Assembly (NCBI RefSeq): GCF_000737325.1
Contig: NZ_CP011125.1
Coordinates: forward strand, 124,001 to 188,000
Direction: 5' to 3'
DNA length: 64,000 bases
Origin: Sandaracinus amylolyticus
GTDB lineage: Bacteria; Myxococcota_A; Polyangia; Polyangiales; Sandaracinaceae
Shown: piece after piece, positions 4,452 through 56,680 of the stretch
Numbering within the stretch: position 1 is the first letter of the stretch
How the letters are laid out: each line of letters opens with the position of its first letter
Translations under genes and position numbers: made by a program
Notes under the pieces: generated by a model
Databases searched by the model: none
Seen by the model: the letters and a program-made list of their open reading frames with translations, nothing else
Told to the model about the DNA's origin: nothing

Positions 4452-4796
4452 ATGTACCTGGCCGTCCGCAAGTACCGGAAGGTGGAAGGCGACGAGAAGG
4501 AGCTGATGGCGCGCATCCAGCGCGGCTTCGTCCCGCTGATCTCGCGAATCGACGGATTCGTCGACTACTACTGCTTCATTGCCGAGGATGGCTCGCTGAT
4601 CTCGGTGAGCGTCTACCGGGACGAGCGCGGCGCGGAGGAGTCGGTGCGCGCGGCCTCGCGGTTCGTCGAGCAGCAGCTCGCCGAGTTCCTCCCCGAGAAG
4701 CCGGAGGTCATCGCCGGCGAGGTGCTCGCGCATGCATCGGGCCAGAGCCGCGGCGAGCTCACGACCAACGCAGCGCGAGACGATCGTCGTCCGTGA
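4452..4796 (+). CDS. Small antibiotic-biosynthesis-monooxygenase-like protein
   Basis: A 114-residue ferredoxin-like alpha/beta protein (MYLAVRKYRKVEGD, then FVPLISRIDGFVDYYCF and ISVSVYRD) resembling ABM-domain or stress-responsive dimeric barrel proteins. The longer frame begins with a GTG at 4383 overlapping the VOC stop, but those extra residues are Arg-rich and unconserved in look. The ATG at 4452 follows a purine-rich GAGAGG and starts the domain. It may be the third gene of the MarR operon. Its 3' end overlaps the convergent CapA gene by 38 bp. Whether it is an enzyme or just shares the fold is not clear. Confidence 0.7.
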   Translation: MYLAVRKYRKVEGDEKELMARIQRGFVPLISRIDGFVDYYCFIAEDGSLISVSVYRDERGAEESVRAASRFVEQQLAEFLPEKPEVIAGEVLAHASGQSRGELTTNAARDDRRP

Positions 4797-47120: not shown

Positions 47121-47609
47121 GTGCGTCGTGACGCAGACGAAGGTCGAGCCGTAGGGCCGACGTCTGCGCGCTGCGCTTCTCCTGCGGGTGAGAGTCCCGC
47201 CTCGGTAGGCACCGGAGCGGCGAGTAGCAGGCCCCGGGCGTCGGGAGAGATCCCGTCGTCCCGAGCGGGGCGTCGAAAGCCCGTCAGGCAGCGAGAGCTG
47301 TGCAGCGGGGAGCAAGATCGCGGGCCGCAACATGAAGTGAAGCCTGCAGCCTCGTCAGATGAACAATCCGAGAGCCGAGCCGCTCATTTCACGGCGAAGG
47401 CCACGCTCGAAGCGTCTGTTCCGGAGCGCGCATCGAGTCTCGGCGGGGTATGGGGCGCAGCACGCGATCACGGAGAAGCGCGGAACACGAGAGGCCCGTC
47501 TGCGCAGCCCTCGTCGGGGCGAAGCGCGCCGTATAAGCCGAAGGCGAAATCGGCCGCCGCGCAGCGGGAGTCCGAGGGGATCGTAGTACCGCACGGCATC
47601 GCCACGGCG

Positions 47610-49061
47610 ATGTCGACGAACGTCGTGCAGAACAACGCGACGGGAGGGAAGGGTCCCTGGGGCAGTCACGTCGAGGAAGCAGGTAAGCGCGAGGGAATGG
47701 CCGGCAGGACCGGACCTAACGACCCCGGCGGCCGTAGGCCGCGCGAAGAAGTGCGACAACTGCAGAGGCGACTGTGGGTCGCGGCCAAGCGAGCACCTGG
47801 AAGACGTTTTCACGCTCTTTATGACCACATCTGGAGGAGTGACGTCCTTCGGGAAGCGTGGAAGCGAGTCGAGGCGAACAAGGGCGCGGCGGGCGTCGAT
47901 GGCCAGACGATCGCCGAGGTGAAGCAGTACGGAGTCGAGCGCTTCCTCGAAGAGCTCGGCGAGGCACTGCGGAGCAAGACGTACCGGCCCGAGGTGGTGC
48001 TGCGCCGGTACATCCCGAAGGCAGATGGAAGGAAGCGGCCGCTGGGGATTCCGACGGTCCGGGATCGAGTGGTCCAGATGGCGGCGAAGCTGGTGCTGGA
48101 GCCGATCTTCGAGGCGGACTTTCTTCCGTGCTCGTGGGGCTTCCGGCCGAAGCGGGGCGCGCTGGGTGCGCTGGAGACGCTGAGGAAGCTCGGCGCGAAG
48201 AGGCATCACCACGTGCTCGACGCCGACATCCGCGACTACTTCGGGAGCATCGATCACGACAAGCTGATGAAGCTGGTCGCTCGACGCATCTCGGATCGGC
48301 GGATGCTCAAGCTGGTGCGGCAGTGGCTCGAAGCGGGCGTGATGGACGGGGGCGTCGTGACTCGCAACATCGCGGGAACGCCGCAGGGCGGAGTCATCTC
48401 TCCGCTGCTCTCGAACATCTACCTGCACGTGCTCGACGTGACGTGGATGCGTAAGAGCGCCCCGCTCGGGACGCTGGTGCGCTACGCGGACGACTTCGTC
48501 GTGATGTGCAAGACGAAGCGCGAGTGCGAAGAGGCAGAGAGGCGCATTCGAGTCATCCTCGGGCGCCTCGGTCTCGAGCTGCATCCGGACAAGACGAGGC
48601 GAGTCGAGCTCTACGACGGCAAGCAGGGCTTCGATCTTCTCGGACATCACCTGCACAAACGCATGAGCGGAGCGCTGTGGGAGAAGAAAGGCAGACGCCT
48701 CTATTTCCTGCATCGCTGGCCGTCCGCGCGCGCGATGAAGCGGGTGAGACAGCGCGTGAAGGAGCTGACTCCGATGAGGCGGTGCCACGCGGATCTCCGC
48801 GAGGTGATCGCCGATCTCAACCCCGTGCTGCGGGGCTGGGGCAACTACTTCCGCACCGGAAATGCCGCCAAGAAATTCAACCAACTCGACAGCTACGTCT
48901 GGCGTCGGCTGCGGGACCTGCGCGTGGAGCGCAAGGGCCGGCATCTGAAGCCGGGGGAGTCGAGCAGGTGGACGCGCGAGTACTTCTGGAGCCTCGGACT
49001 TCATCGCCTGCGAGGGACCGTGCAGTACCCCGAGCGAGCCTTCTTCCAGGAGGTCGCGTAA
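47610..49061 (+). CDS. ltrA: Group II intron reverse transcriptase/maturase
   Basis: A 483-residue protein with the reverse-transcriptase domains in order: KGAAGVDGQTI and YRPEVVLRRYIPKADGRKRPLGIPTVRDRVVQ, then ADIRDYFGSIDH, TPQGGVISPLLSNIYLH, the catalytic RYADDFV (Y292-A-D-D295) and LHPDKTRRV. The maturase domain X (HADLREVIADLNPVLRGWGNYF) is near 390-415. No HNH endonuclease domain follows. The frame is open far upstream, but the ATG at 47610 begins the known protein part; earlier residues are translated ribozyme sequence. It would splice the intron and drive its retrohoming. Confidence 0.93.
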   Translation: MSTNVVQNNATGGKGPWGSHVEEAGKREGMAGRTGPNDPGGRRPREEVRQLQRRLWVAAKRAPGRRFHALYDHIWRSDVLREAWKRVEANKGAAGVDGQTIAEVKQYGVERFLEELGEALRSKTYRPEVVLRRYIPKADGRKRPLGIPTVRDRVVQMAAKLVLEPIFEADFLPCSWGFRPKRGALGALETLRKLGAKRHHHVLDADIRDYFGSIDHDKLMKLVARRISDRRMLKLVRQWLEAGVMDGGVVTRNIAGTPQGGVISPLLSNIYLHVLDVTWMRKSAPLGTLVRYADDFVVMCKTKRECEEAERRIRVILGRLGLELHPDKTRRVELYDGKQGFDLLGHHLHKRMSGALWEKKGRRLYFLHRWPSARAMKRVRQRVKELTPMRRCHADLREVIADLNPVLRGWGNYFRTGNAAKKFNQLDSYVWRRLRDLRVERKGRHLKPGESSRWTREYFWSLGLHRLRGTVQYPERAFFQEVA

Positions 49062-49086
49062 TGCAGCGACTCGAGAGACTGCCCGT

Positions 49087-49120
49087 AAGCCGTGTGCGGG
49101 AAATCCGCACGCACGGTTTG
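49087..49120 (+). ncRNA. Group II intron domain V
   Basis: 34-nt catalytic hairpin with the AGC triad near its start, a GAAA-type tetraloop region and the pairing GTGCG/CGCAC. It lies 26 nt after the maturase stop, as usual. Confidence 0.85.
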
Positions 49121-49175
49121 AACGGGGGTCTTGACCAACCGCCGGCGCAGGCCGGTAGCAGGTAAGGATCTACCA

Positions 49176-51943: not shown

Positions 51944-52315
51944 ATGCGCCGCATGCTCCGGACGCTGTTCCCAGCGCTGGCGTGCGTCGCGTTGCTCGTG
52001 CTCGCGCCCGTGTGCCGTCGTTCCCAGACACGCCCACTCGCAGCGGCGAGCGTCGCTTGCAGCCCACCGTGCTCTCCCGGCTTCGCGTGCGTCCCGCCCG
52101 GCGCGTGCATTCCCGTGTGCACGCCGGCGTGCGAGCCGGGCTGGGCGAGCTCGAACGGCAGCTGCATCCCGCTCTGCAACCCGGGGTGCGGACCGGGCAC
52201 GCACTGCGCCGAGGATCGCGTCTGCCGTCCCGGCGCAGCGCTTCCGCCGCGCGGCGGTGAGCCCACGCAGGAGTGGTGGCCCGCGCCGCCGCAGCACCCG
52301 GGCTCGGGCGCGTGA
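51944..52315 (+). CDS. Small exported Cys-rich protein
   Basis: A 123-residue protein with a hydrophobic N-terminus (TLFPALACVALLVLAPVC) followed by CSPPCSPGFACVPPGACIPVCTPACEPGW and CNPGCGPGTHCAEDRVC (in parts), i.e. regularly spaced Cys pairs like knottin or EGF fragments. The lipobox is poor (APVC), so it may be secreted or membrane-anchored. First gene of a four-gene operon: its stop overlaps the next start as GTGA. Confidence 0.68.
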   Translation: MRRMLRTLFPALACVALLVLAPVCRRSQTRPLAAASVACSPPCSPGFACVPPGACIPVCTPACEPGWASSNGSCIPLCNPGCGPGTHCAEDRVCRPGAALPPRGGEPTQEWWPAPPQHPGSGA

Positions 52316-53328
52316 GGGCCGCGCTCTCGGTCCTCGCCGCGATCGCGCTCGCGGGGTGCATCTGCGGTCCGGGCGAGACGCTCTGCGAGGGTCGCTGCGT
52401 CGATCTGCACAGCGATCTCGAGAGCTGCGGCGGCTGCGGCTTCACGTGCTCGACGGCGTGCGTCGACGGCGCGTGCCTGCCGGGGCGCCGGTGCGACTCG
52501 ATCGCCGACTGCGACGACGGGCTCGCGTGCAATGGTCGCGAGGGTTGCGTCGGCTTCGTCGGTGGGGTCGCGACGTGTCGGGCGGGCGAGCCCGTGGTCT
52601 GCGACGACGGCGTGATGTGCACGCGTGATCGCTGCGCCGAGCCCTCGGGAACGTGCGAGGCGGTGCCCGACGACACGCGCTGCTCGGGCGGTCGCTGCAC
52701 CGGCGAAGGCGTGTCGGGCTGCGCGTTCGCGTGCGCGCGAACGCCGTGCGGCGTCGTCGAGCCGCAGTGTGGATGTGCCGACACCGAGGGCTGCTACCTC
52801 GGCGACGACGGCGCCGCGTGCCTGCCCGCGGGCTTCCTCGAGGAAGGCGCGCCGTGCGCGACGGTCAACGACTGCCGTCCCGGCCTCGCGTGCGCCGACT
52901 GGTCGATCGACCTCGATCGCCCGGACGTCCGCTGCGTCGCGCTCTGCTCGGAGCACTCGGACTGCGCGAGCCGCGTGTGCGCGACGACCGGCGTCCCCGG
53001 GGTCTCGGAGCGTGTCGGTCGATGCGGATCGAATTGCCGCCCTCACGATCACGGCAGCTGCTGGAACGACATGGCCTGCGTGGTGCTCGGGACGTCGACG
53101 CTCACCTGGACGCAGTGCGTGAGCGGGTACGGCACCGCGCGACAGGGCGAGCCCTGCGAGACGGACGCGAGCTGCGCGCCCGAGCACGTCTGCATCCGCA
53201 CCGACGTGGGGCTCCGCTGCGCGCACTGGTGCCGCAGCGCCGCCGACTGCCCGTCGACGTCGCACTCCTGCTGGCCGCTCGACCCCGAGGTCGTGCTCGC
53301 GGGCGTCTCCTACGGAGTCTGTCTCTGA
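52312..53328 (+). CDS. Cys-rich lipoprotein with Stig1-like N-terminus
   Basis: A 338-residue lipoprotein with GTG start and lipobox LAGC16, immediately followed by CGPGETLCEGRCVDLHSD-LESCGGCGFTC, a Stig1-like Cys unit also found at the start of the RCC1 protein in this operon. The rest has about 40 cysteines in DxDC/CxxGxxC patterns (CDSIADCDDGLACNG, CATVNDCRPGLACAD, CETDASCAPEHVC), probably all in disulfides. Function unknown; surface binding is plausible. Its start overlaps the previous stop (GTGA) and its stop overlaps the next start (TGATG). Confidence 0.77.
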   Translation: MRAALSVLAAIALAGCICGPGETLCEGRCVDLHSDLESCGGCGFTCSTACVDGACLPGRRCDSIADCDDGLACNGREGCVGFVGGVATCRAGEPVVCDDGVMCTRDRCAEPSGTCEAVPDDTRCSGGRCTGEGVSGCAFACARTPCGVVEPQCGCADTEGCYLGDDGAACLPAGFLEEGAPCATVNDCRPGLACADWSIDLDRPDVRCVALCSEHSDCASRVCATTGVPGVSERVGRCGSNCRPHDHGSCWNDMACVVLGTSTLTWTQCVSGYGTARQGEPCETDASCAPEHVCIRTDVGLRCAHWCRSAADCPSTSHSCWPLDPEVVLAGVSYGVCL

Positions 53329-55049
53329 TGCGCCGCTCCACGTGCTGGTCGCTCCTGATCACGCTGCTGCTCGGCGCGCGCATCGCGTCCGCGCAGGACG
53401 CCGTGCCACCGACCGACGCGCCCGCCGCGGCAGTCGCGCCGCCGAGCGATCCGCTCGGGTACTCGACGATCGATCGCGCGACCGTGCGCGTGTTCGCGGT
53501 GCGCGGCGTCGACGCGATGCGCATCGACAGCCAGTCGGGCCGAGCGCGCATGCTCGCGACACCCGACGCCGGCCACGGCAGCGGCGTCCTCGTCGATCCG
53601 AGCGGCATCGTGGTCACCGCCGCGCACGTCGTGTCCGACGCAGCGCTGCTCGCGGTGTGGGTCCCGGGGCACGACCGCGCGTTCCCCGCTGCCGTGATCC
53701 ATCGCGACACCGAGCGCGACATCGCGTTCCTCGCGGTCGGCGCGACGTTCGAGTCCTTCGTCGCGCTCGAGGAGCGACCGGCGCTCCACGTGCGACAAGA
53801 GGTGCACGCGATCGGCTATCCGCTCGATCCGCGCCGCACCGATCCGCAGTCGAGCCGCGGCATCGTGTCCGGCGTGCTGCCCGAGGGCTTCCTGCAGCTC
53901 GACATGGCGCTCAACCCGGGCAATTCGGGCGGTCCGCTGATCGACGCGGACGAGCGCATCGTCGGCTTCGTCGTCGCGCGCGGGAACCCCGAGGCCGGCG
54001 TGCAGAGCATCGGGTTCGCGCAGCCGGTCGGTCCGGTGATCGAGCTCCTCCGCGCCCACGTGACGGGCTCGAGCGCGCTCGAGACGGCGCGCGCGCGGCT
54101 CACGGACGGCGCGCGCTCCACGGAGATCGCGGATCTCGTCGCGCTGCTGGTGCGCGTCGGCGCGCACGAGCTCATCCGCGACGTGATCGCGGTGCTCGAC
54201 GACGGGCGCCACAGCGAGATCCTCGATCGGCTGCGCCGGCTCTCGGAGTCGACGCAGGACCCCGAGGTGCTCGCGCTCACCGCCGCGTACTTCTGGGACG
54301 CCGCGGCGGTCGTGCTCGAGCGCGCCGGCGGTGCGATGCGCGCGTCGCAGCTCCCCGAAGGTCCGGAGCGCACGCTCGTGATCGAGCTCCTGCGTCGCTC
54401 GGTCGCGCTCTGCCATCGCGCGGCGCAGCTCGATCCGCTGTTGCCGCGTCGCGCGCCGTTCGTCGCGCGCGTCGTCTACTACTTCGACGCGGAGCCGCAC
54501 GACGAGGCGCCGCAGGTCATCACGCCGGTCGTCGCGGTGACGCCCGACACGACCGTCGACGTGCCCGCGCCGCCGGCGATCACGCCCGCGCGACCGCCCT
54601 CGCCGTATCGCGATCCGCGCGTGCTCTACCGGTTCGGCATCGCGGCGCTGACCGCGCCGAGCGGCGGCTTCGCGCTCGACGTCGGCGCCGCGTCGTTCGG
54701 CGTCGCATGGTCGCCCGCCACGCTGCGCCTCGGGCTGCTCGCGCTCGACGCGCGCATCGGCGGCACGTTCACCGGCGGAAGCTGGAGCGGCGAGGGGCTC
54801 TTCTCCGCGCACTTCGACGTCGGCGCGACGGTGCGGCTCGGCGAGCGCTACGGCGCGGCGATCGGCGCCGCGTGGACGCCGGGCGGGCTGTGGAGCGGGC
54901 AGGCGAGCGGGCTCACCGTCGCGGGTTGGCGCGCGTTCGCGGGCGTGCAGCTCGACGTCGCGACCGTCGGCCTCGGATGGCGCGGGATGCAGCTCGATCG
55001 CGCCCCCGCGTTCCACGCGCTCGAGGCGTACGTGGAGCTCGGCTGGTGA
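53328..55049 (+). CDS. Trypsin-like (HtrA-type) serine protease with C-terminal beta domain
   Basis: A 573-residue exported protein with a signal peptide ending ASAQ near residue 23. The chymotrypsin-fold domain (about 45-245) has the full triad: H100 in VVTAAHVV, D131 in ERDIAFLAV and S200 in NPGNSGGPL. No PDZ domain is visible. A helical middle (about 250-390) is followed by a C-terminal beta-rich region (about 430-573: RFGIAALTAPSGGFALDVGAASFGV, ending VELGW) resembling a small outer-membrane barrel. This suggests a protease displayed on or tethered to the outer membrane. It sits between two Cys-rich lipoproteins in the operon. Confidence 0.85.
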   Translation: MRRSTCWSLLITLLLGARIASAQDAVPPTDAPAAAVAPPSDPLGYSTIDRATVRVFAVRGVDAMRIDSQSGRARMLATPDAGHGSGVLVDPSGIVVTAAHVVSDAALLAVWVPGHDRAFPAAVIHRDTERDIAFLAVGATFESFVALEERPALHVRQEVHAIGYPLDPRRTDPQSSRGIVSGVLPEGFLQLDMALNPGNSGGPLIDADERIVGFVVARGNPEAGVQSIGFAQPVGPVIELLRAHVTGSSALETARARLTDGARSTEIADLVALLVRVGAHELIRDVIAVLDDGRHSEILDRLRRLSESTQDPEVLALTAAYFWDAAAVVLERAGGAMRASQLPEGPERTLVIELLRRSVALCHRAAQLDPLLPRRAPFVARVVYYFDAEPHDEAPQVITPVVAVTPDTTVDVPAPPAITPARPPSPYRDPRVLYRFGIAALTAPSGGFALDVGAASFGVAWSPATLRLGLLALDARIGGTFTGGSWSGEGLFSAHFDVGATVRLGERYGAAIGAAWTPGGLWSGQASGLTVAGWRAFAGVQLDVATVGLGWRGMQLDRAPAFHALEAYVELGW

Positions 55050-56680
55050 TGCGCGCACGGCTGTCGTCGATCGCGCTCGCGTGGGCCCTCGCGTCGTGCG
55101 TGTGCGGGCCGGGACAGAGCCTCTGCGGCGATCGATGCGTCGACCTCGCGAGCACGCCGACCGACTGCGGCGCGTGTGGGCGCGCGTGCCCGACGCCGTG
55201 GACCTGCGAGCGCGGCGAGTGCGCGCCCCCGCCGGGCGTGTGCCGCACGCCGTGCGGCGCCGGCGAGGCGTGCGTCGACGGCGTCTGCGTCTGCGCTGCG
55301 GGCCTGACGGACTGCGGCAACGCGTGCGTCGATCTCGCGCGCGACCCGTCGAGCTGCGGCGCGTGCGGCGAGCCGTGTCCGGCCGGCGCGTCGTGCGAAG
55401 GGGGCGCGTGCGTGTGCCCGCCGTCCGCGCCCGACACCTGCGACGGCGCGTGCGTCGATCTCACGACCGACGTCGCGCACTGCGGCGCATGCGGCACCGC
55501 GTGCCCCGAGACCGCGCGCTGCGCGAGCGGCGCGTGCGCGTGCCCCGGCGCGCTCGCGCTCGCGTGCGACGGCGCGTGCGTCGACGGCGCGACCGACCCG
55601 CGCCACTGCGGCGCGTGCGGCAGCGGGTGCACGATCGAGTGCGACGGCGGCGCGTGTCTCTCGGTGCGCGAGGTCGCGATCGGCGGCTCGCACGTCGTGG
55701 TCCTGATGAGCGACGAGGTGCCGTGGACGTGGGGCTACAACGTCTACTGCCAGCTCGGCGACGGCACGTGCTCCACCCGCGGCGAGCGCCCCGAGCGCGT
55801 GTATCCGCTCGATCGCATCAGCCAGATCACGGCGGGGCAGGGCCACACCTGCGCGCGCGTCGGCGGCGAAGCGTACTGCTGGGGATGGAACGAGGACGGA
55901 CAGCTCGGCGTCGGCAACACCGAGTTCGCGTACCGCAGCGCGCTCCGCATCTTCACCGCGGGCGTGGCGGAGATCGACGCGGGCTACCGCACGACGTGCG
56001 TGCGCGGCGTCGACGGAACCGTCTGGTGCTGGGGCGACGAGCAAGAGGGGCTCGCCGCGTCGCCGGGCGCCGGCGCGATCTCGACGCCGGTGCAGTGGAG
56101 CACGTTCGACGACGTGATCGACGTCGACGTCGGCGGCGAGGTCTGCGTGCGGCGCGCGAGCGGCGCCGTGCACTGCAGCGCGTTCGGCAGCGAGGGATCG
56201 TGGCCGCGCGAGGTCCCGGCGTGGCACGGCGCGTCGCAGGTCGCGGTCGGCAGCGAGCACGCGTGCGCGATCGTCGCGGGCTCGGTGTCGTGCACCGGGC
56301 GCAACCGCTACGGACAGATCGGCAACGGCGCGGTCTCCTCGACGGCGTGGGTCGCGCCGACGACCGTCCCGGTCGGCGAGACGGTGGTCGAGATCGCGCT
56401 CGCGACCAGCACGACCTGCGCGCGCGGCGCGAGCGGTCGCGTGTACTGCTGGGGCTCGGGCTACGACGAGCTCACCGGTCCGTTCGGCGACCGCGAGACG
56501 CCCACGCCGCAGCCGATCCCGTCCACGGCCGGCGCGCAGCGTCTCGTGTGCGGGATGTCGACGTGCTGCGTGCACTTCGGCGGCACCGACCTGCGCTGCT
56601 GGGGCAACGACTACAACGGCGAGCTCGCGGACGGCATGTTCCGGGAGGATCGCGACACGCCGTACCCCGTGCAGTGGTGA
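55049..56680 (+). CDS. Stig1-like Cys-rich lipoprotein with RCC1-type propeller
   Basis: A 543-residue lipoprotein (lipobox LASC17). Residues 17-210 hold four Stig1-like units (CVDLASTPTDCGACGRAC, CVDLARDPSSCGACGEPC, CVDLTTDVAHCGACGTAC, CVDGATDPRHCGACGSGC). Residues about 215-543 are RCC1/BLIP-II-like propeller blades with GGxHxxxL.....vwcWGxNxxGQLGdG (ITAGQGHTCARVGGEAYCWGWNEDGQLGVGN, seen in pieces, is the clearest). These are binding scaffolds; BLIP-II relatives inhibit enzymes. As last gene of the protease operon it might recognise a substrate or control the protease, which is inference. Start overlaps the protease stop (TGATG). Confidence 0.84.
   Translation: MRARLSSIALAWALASCVCGPGQSLCGDRCVDLASTPTDCGACGRACPTPWTCERGECAPPPGVCRTPCGAGEACVDGVCVCAAGLTDCGNACVDLARDPSSCGACGEPCPAGASCEGGACVCPPSAPDTCDGACVDLTTDVAHCGACGTACPETARCASGACACPGALALACDGACVDGATDPRHCGACGSGCTIECDGGACLSVREVAIGGSHVVVLMSDEVPWTWGYNVYCQLGDGTCSTRGERPERVYPLDRISQITAGQGHTCARVGGEAYCWGWNEDGQLGVGNTEFAYRSALRIFTAGVAEIDAGYRTTCVRGVDGTVWCWGDEQEGLAASPGAGAISTPVQWSTFDDVIDVDVGGEVCVRRASGAVHCSAFGSEGSWPREVPAWHGASQVAVGSEHACAIVAGSVSCTGRNRYGQIGNGAVSSTAWVAPTTVPVGETVVEIALATSTTCARGASGRVYCWGSGYDELTGPFGDRETPTPQPIPSTAGAQRLVCGMSTCCVHFGGTDLRCWGNDYNGELADGMFREDRDTPYPVQW

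Follow-up and report, generated by a model that had tools for sequence, protein, structure and literature searches.

A PDZ-less HtrA-type serine protease with a predicted C-terminal β-barrel, encoded with Cys-rich envelope proteins in a conserved operon of Sandaracinaceae

What can be read from the sequences analysed here is an overlapping operon of Sandaracinus amylolyticus in which two Cys-rich proteins precede a DegS/HtrA-type serine protease with an intact catalytic triad, no detectable PDZ domain and a recurrent pairing with Cys-rich lipoproteins; the protease is predicted to carry its own outer-membrane β-barrel. The operon lies in a window of 64,000 nucleotides (the whole stretch of DNA that was analysed), corresponding to bases 124001-188000 of a genome assembled into a single contig of 10,327,335 bp; the complete genome of S. 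amylolyticus DSM 53668 has been reported to comprise 10.33 Mb (PMC5010890). The component parts are of known kinds, but their combination was not found described: the open-access literature searched yielded neither an HtrA protein carrying a C-terminal barrel of its own nor a PDZ-less HtrA-type protease joined to both an outer-membrane barrel and coupled Cys-rich lipoproteins, although a subscription-only description is possible. To this extent the module is undescribed, as an earlier note on this DNA had suggested.

The known envelope proteases of HtrA type are either soluble periplasmic enzymes or held by an inner-membrane anchor; misfolded outer-membrane proteins are sensed via their PDZ domains. 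A PDZ-less relative fused to an outer-membrane barrel would, if the prediction is true, put proteolysis at the outer membrane itself, and the paired Cys-rich lipoproteins would be a directly testable client or regulator. Cys-rich surface proteins are numerous in myxobacteria, and little is understood of how they mature and are quality-controlled.

Organization and conservation of the operon

Four open reading frames on the + strand occupy positions 51944-56680 of the window: g1 (51944..52315; 123 aa) encodes a small exported Cys-rich protein, g2 (52312..53328; 338 aa, GTG start) a Cys-rich lipoprotein, g3 (53328..55049; 573 aa) the PDZ-less HtrA/DegS-type serine protease with its C-terminal β-barrel, and g4 (55049..56680; 543 aa) a lipoprotein combining a Cys-rich part with an RCC1 propeller. 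The junctions are GTGA (g1/g2), TGATG (g2/g3) and again TGATG (g3/g4), exactly as the earlier note had read them, and its broader picture of an exported envelope operon centred on a trypsin-like protease is supported, the genes being translationally coupled. In the correct frame, codon scores are strongly positive for g2, g3 and g4 and marginal for g1 (2.8); g1 is nevertheless regarded as real because its orthologues are found in place, immediately before g2, in two further species (G002 and G003), which also rules out a spurious open reading frame. A promoter and terminator scan, which does not cover myxobacterial promoters, returned nothing exceeding chance. Just upstream of the region, a group II intron was identified (Rfam RF02003 at 47182-47335 and RF00029 at 49085-49144 of the window) with a reverse-transcriptase-like ORF at 48069-49061; the element appears to be multi-copy, since a further RCC1 gene of this genome, at L144, has an ORF with the same first residues close by.

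The main evidence for regarding g1-g2-g3 as a functional unit is that the cluster is kept amid unrelated surroundings. The same order recurs in G002 and G003, two species of another Sandaracinaceae genus, with an ATGA overlap at every readable junction (near 4575 and 5600 in L035, near 12238 and 13281 in L036). The g2 orthologues are 36-38% identical over their full length and keep the Cys pattern, and the g3 orthologues are about 49-52% identical; the g3 gene of G002 appears split between two contigs (C74 and C143), and its barrel was read from the second. Beyond g1-g2-g3, L035 and L036 have nothing in common, and the other genes of the window share with these two loci only generic kinase-type or repeat matches. 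Synteny, which the earlier note had put forward as a check, is thus conserved, but limited to three genes: the proposed four-gene module stands for g1-g2-g3 and falls for g4, which is missing from both relatives. Following the operon of G003, a tandem barrel-less paralogue of the protease (L035 7558-8670) is found where the window has the RCC1 gene.

The distribution of the operon is patchy, since two genomes of the same genus (G008 and G009) yielded no g3 orthologue at E 1e-30. A contig scan with the single g3 sequence as query gave no match; an alignment-based scan of 84,980 species genomes detected four MAG loci only, namely the two known Sandaracinaceae-type copies and two more distant ones.

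Architecture of the protease

The trypsin-like nature of g3 is evident from its match to Trypsin_2 (E 9.4e-25; 88.5 bits against a cut-off of 27.6), accompanied by a match to Trypsin, and the closest solved structures are DegQ and DegS. An AF2 model built from 28 homologues (mean pLDDT 84) divides the protein into four parts. The protease domain (residues 47-233; 53466..54026, + strand; pLDDT mostly >90) resembles that of DegS (Z 26, rmsd 2.2, 182 residues) and contains the catalytic triad H100, D131 and S200, invariant in nine homologues. It is followed by a predicted helical domain (residues 234-386; 54027..54485, + strand), which occupies the position of the PDZ domain in HtrA proteins, by a putatively disordered, Pro-rich linker (residues 389-427; 54492..54608, + strand; pLDDT <50) and by a predicted C-terminal β-barrel (residues 431-572; 54618..55043, + strand; pLDDT mostly 77-96), in which eight long strands form an even-stranded, antiparallel arrangement. 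The Trypsin_2 match and the modelled barrel agree with the earlier description of a trypsin-like protease with a C-terminal barrel-like domain; a fold search with the whole model returned, among the matches listed, protease-domain chains only. The last residue, Trp 573, is aromatic as for a BAM signal, and Phe or Trp occupies the last position in 14 of the 24 homologues with a long C-terminal extension versus 7.6% of 619 sampled genes. On the basis of the model, the barrel is predicted to serve g3 as an outer-membrane anchor, and both of its ends would be periplasmic because the strand number is even; the protease and helical domains are accordingly expected, if the model holds, on the side of the outer membrane that faces the periplasm.

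The relationship of g3 to the HtrA family is close but incomplete. Members of this family (S1C) are defined by a chymotrypsin-type catalytic domain with a His-Asp-Ser triad, at least one C-terminal PDZ domain and trimerization via the protease domains (PMC11642142). Since the definition includes at least one PDZ domain, and no PDZ Pfam match was obtained for g3 or for any of its 28 homologues, g3 has a DegS/HtrA-like catalytic domain and fails a defining feature of the family. It shares with DegS, DegP and DegQ (MEROPS S1C) the chymotrypsin-like domain, the triad, the NPGNSGGP motif and the envelope location, whereas it differs from them in having a helical domain instead of a detected PDZ; furthermore, DegS is anchored in the inner membrane, in contrast to the outer-membrane barrel predicted for g3, and the partner genes also differ.

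A second point of reference is provided by the autotransporter serine proteases (SPATE/IgA1 protease type), which likewise combine an N-terminal serine protease and a C-terminal outer-membrane barrel in one chain. However, classical autotransporters have 12 strands as opposed to the eight predicted here, and the SPATE/IgA1 type carries an S6-type protease, whereas g3 has an HtrA-type protease and a long linker predicted to be disordered. The Autotransporter Pfam family is unmatched in g3, with one weak match among the 28 homologues (E 0.016); judged by its model and its Pfam matches, g3 has neither the 12-stranded barrel nor the Autotransporter domain by which type Va autotransporters are recognized.

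The Cys-rich proteins

The g1 protein contains three C-x-P-x-C-x-P-G repeats of ~20 residues and a conserved tail, EP[ST]QEW[RW]P[AP]PP. Its N-terminus has a hydrophobic stretch, but the lipobox is non-canonical (APVC); its orthologues, with LGAC or LSAC at this position, are by their sequence probable lipoproteins. In g2, 47 Cys residues are distributed over 338 residues in a string of small disulphide-type modules. Canonical lipoboxes are present in g2 (LAGC) and g4 (LASC) and are followed in each by a Stig1-type module, the two modules being identical at 23 of 44 residues. The earlier note had drawn attention to this shared start directly after the lipidated Cys: both proteins indeed have it, but it is an ordinary module of a large family, and g2 remains under both curated cut-offs (Stig1, 14.9 versus 24.1 bits; NF041328, 27.3 versus 100), whereas its orthologue in G003 is above that for Stig1. 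The first module of g4 scores higher against the second module of the same protein (152; 25 of 46 residues identical) than against g2 (131). That the two starts are recent copies of each other is unsupported; their likeness is ordinary within the module family.

The modules of g2 after the first match no named family above threshold. The AF2 model of g2 consists of small β-hairpin modules (mean pLDDT 75.9), and a fold search with g2 gave no significant match, the best rows being EGF-type proteins with E 0.08 or worse. Among known proteins, the first module of g2 resembles the MXAN_6577-like (NF041328) and Stig1 (PF04885) families, within both cut-offs of which the N-terminus of g4 falls; MXAN_6577 itself was mentioned in no paper found in the open-access literature. 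At the level of gene organization, a resemblance exists to TraAB of Myxococcus xanthus, an operon in which the gene for a Cys-rich protein of the cell envelope overlaps that for a partner carrying an OmpA-like domain (PMC3325183), as g1-g3 likewise form an overlapping myxobacterial operon with a Cys-rich envelope protein. The differences lie in the components: TraB has an OmpA-like domain, presumed to bind peptidoglycan, and no protease, whereas g3 is a protease, and the PA14 and MYXO-CTERM elements of TraA (PMC3325183) both have no counterpart here.

Relatives of g2 also occur as stand-alone genes in other genera, where they adjoin, in conserved order, a predicted membrane permease of the GFINTLAGGG type, perhaps TSUP (L110 4507-6568, L115 5639-7553, L116 5688-7606). 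In G031 (L098 4023-9163), a barrel-less protease homologue is oriented divergently to a small gene cluster, the last member of which is a g2 relative with 61 Cys, possibly a rearranged version of the same protease/Cys-rich pairing.

Lipoprotein partners across the protease family

Of the 183 genomes of the order, 24 contain the protease family, which is rare elsewhere; its tree falls into two halves with strong support (100/99). Within the Sandaracinaceae, an overlapping gene for a Cys-rich lipoprotein adjoins the protease gene at each of the five barrel-bearing loci, as opposed to none of the six barrel-less loci; in this count, G006 and G007, which are close species, account for two pairs of loci, and one protease runs off its contig. 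The partners are of two kinds, unrelated to each other: a Stig1-like protein upstream of the protease (window, L035 and L036) and a PSI-type protein downstream of it (L039 and L043; PSI 1.1e-13 and 4.7e-6), the latter pairing being repeated in a different family (L105). Because the two partner types fall in different halves of the tree, the pairing of protease and Cys-rich protein arose at least twice. The PSI (plexin-type) lipoproteins overlap the stop of the barrel-bearing homologues in three genera (L039 7227-7934, L043 6390-6893, L105 6589-7164).

Outside the Sandaracinaceae, a Cys-rich neighbour is missing from most barrel-bearing homologues, which indicates that not every such protease needs a partner of this kind. 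Genes for Cys-rich proteins are moreover frequent in these genomes (19 of 255 sampled genes, partners included), and the independent pairings number only two or three; the link between the barrel-bearing protease and a Cys-rich lipoprotein is, on this genomic evidence, suggestive.

Five of the six barrel-less Sandaracinaceae loci have a lipoprotein of ~340 residues upstream. A family of proteins of ~320-345 residues, mostly lipoproteins, is found directly upstream of barrel-less homologues in three taxonomic families (L037 8709-9746, L040 8766-9797, L041 3216-4244, L093 2518-3555, L100 4309-5274); three members scanned gave no Pfam family above cut-off, and this combination is another undescribed protease pairing.

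Possible function and alternative explanations

The best explanation of these observations, although we hold it tentatively and at somewhat less than an even chance, is that g1-g3 form a conserved, coupled envelope operon in which the outer-membrane-tethered protease g3 acts on g2, and perhaps g1, as clients. g3 would be a DegS/HtrA-type protease that has lost, or never had, a PDZ domain; its C-terminal eight-stranded barrel would tether it to the outer membrane, and the even number of strands would put the protease and helical domains at the periplasmic side. The g2 protein, perhaps also g1, would be a dedicated client, that is, a disulphide-rich lipoprotein destined for the outer membrane, which g3 may trim or, when misfolded, remove. 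Proteolysis would then take place locally, at the outer membrane's inner face; both the role of g2 as client and proteolysis as the output are what we infer here. That the system even represents a distinct class, in which an HtrA-type protease is its own outer-membrane protein, a helical domain replaces the PDZ, and dedicated Cys-rich lipoproteins, independently recruited from Stig1-like and PSI types, serve as clients or regulators at this inner face, is a more far-reaching and doubtful proposal.

Alternatively, the Cys-rich lipoprotein might be an adaptor or sensor, which would take over the role of the PDZ domain, bind substrates or ligands at the outer membrane and switch the protease. The lack of a PDZ match throughout the 28 homologues, the occupation of the neighbour position by two unrelated Cys-rich families, and the lipoprotein next to the barrel-less paralogues, as if each case needed a lipoprotein partner, are in keeping with such a role; however, many homologues with a barrel occur on their own beyond the Sandaracinaceae, and we consider this reading rather unlikely. 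Similarly improbable is mere co-expression, whereby exported surface proteins (the protease and the Cys-rich and RCC1 lipoproteins) would share a transcript so as to be regulated jointly, e.g., during predation or surface remodelling, and never contact each other: the abundance of Cys-rich and RCC1 lipoproteins in these genomes and the joining of the non-conserved g4 would fit, but only g1-g2-g3 persist while all flanks differ, and overlapping, coupled junctions are retained in three species.

The RCC1 propeller lipoprotein

The N-terminal part of g4 consists of four Stig1/MXAN_6577-type Cys modules (55094..55663, + strand), which are above the curated cut-offs of PF04885 (Stig1, 62.3 versus 24.1 bits) and NF041328 ('MXAN_6577-like', 142.6 versus 100 bits). 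The remainder is an RCC1-type propeller (55664..56677, + strand), the repeats of which are likewise above cut-off (PF13540, 82.4 bits; PF00415, 80.4 bits). Sequence matches of the propeller in the PDB include UVR8 (E 4e-27), RPGR, HERC and RCC1; g4 is of the same type as these propellers but differs from them in being a bacterial lipoprotein with a Cys-rich stalk.

By its position, g4 is co-transcribed with g1-g3, but it is outside the conserved unit and has been appended in this species. Among the 32 RCC1 genes called from Pfam matches in the genome, g4 is the only one with a serine protease as neighbour and the only one with such a Cys-rich N-terminus. Among the 183 genomes of the order, the closest relatives of g4 show about 40% identity to it, and no g3-type protease is present at their loci. 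An RCC1 protein as a conserved partner of the protease is thereby rejected, and membership of g4 in the module is unsupported. BLIP-II, an RCC1-type inhibitor, binds class A β-lactamases, not trypsin-like enzymes. The suggestion in the earlier note that g4 recognizes or restrains the protease in the manner of BLIP-II is supported by adjacency only (the one-base TGATG overlap of the genes for two exported proteins) and is highly improbable, because g4 is not conserved with g3, no such protease occurs near its closest relatives, and its sequence matches in the PDB, listed to E 0.01, do not include BLIP-II.

Elsewhere in this genome, several RCC1 lipoprotein genes lie very close to, or overlap with, genes for exported proteins other than proteases (L135, L152, L154, L156); judged by this spacing, RCC1 genes may often be operon add-ons in first or last position.
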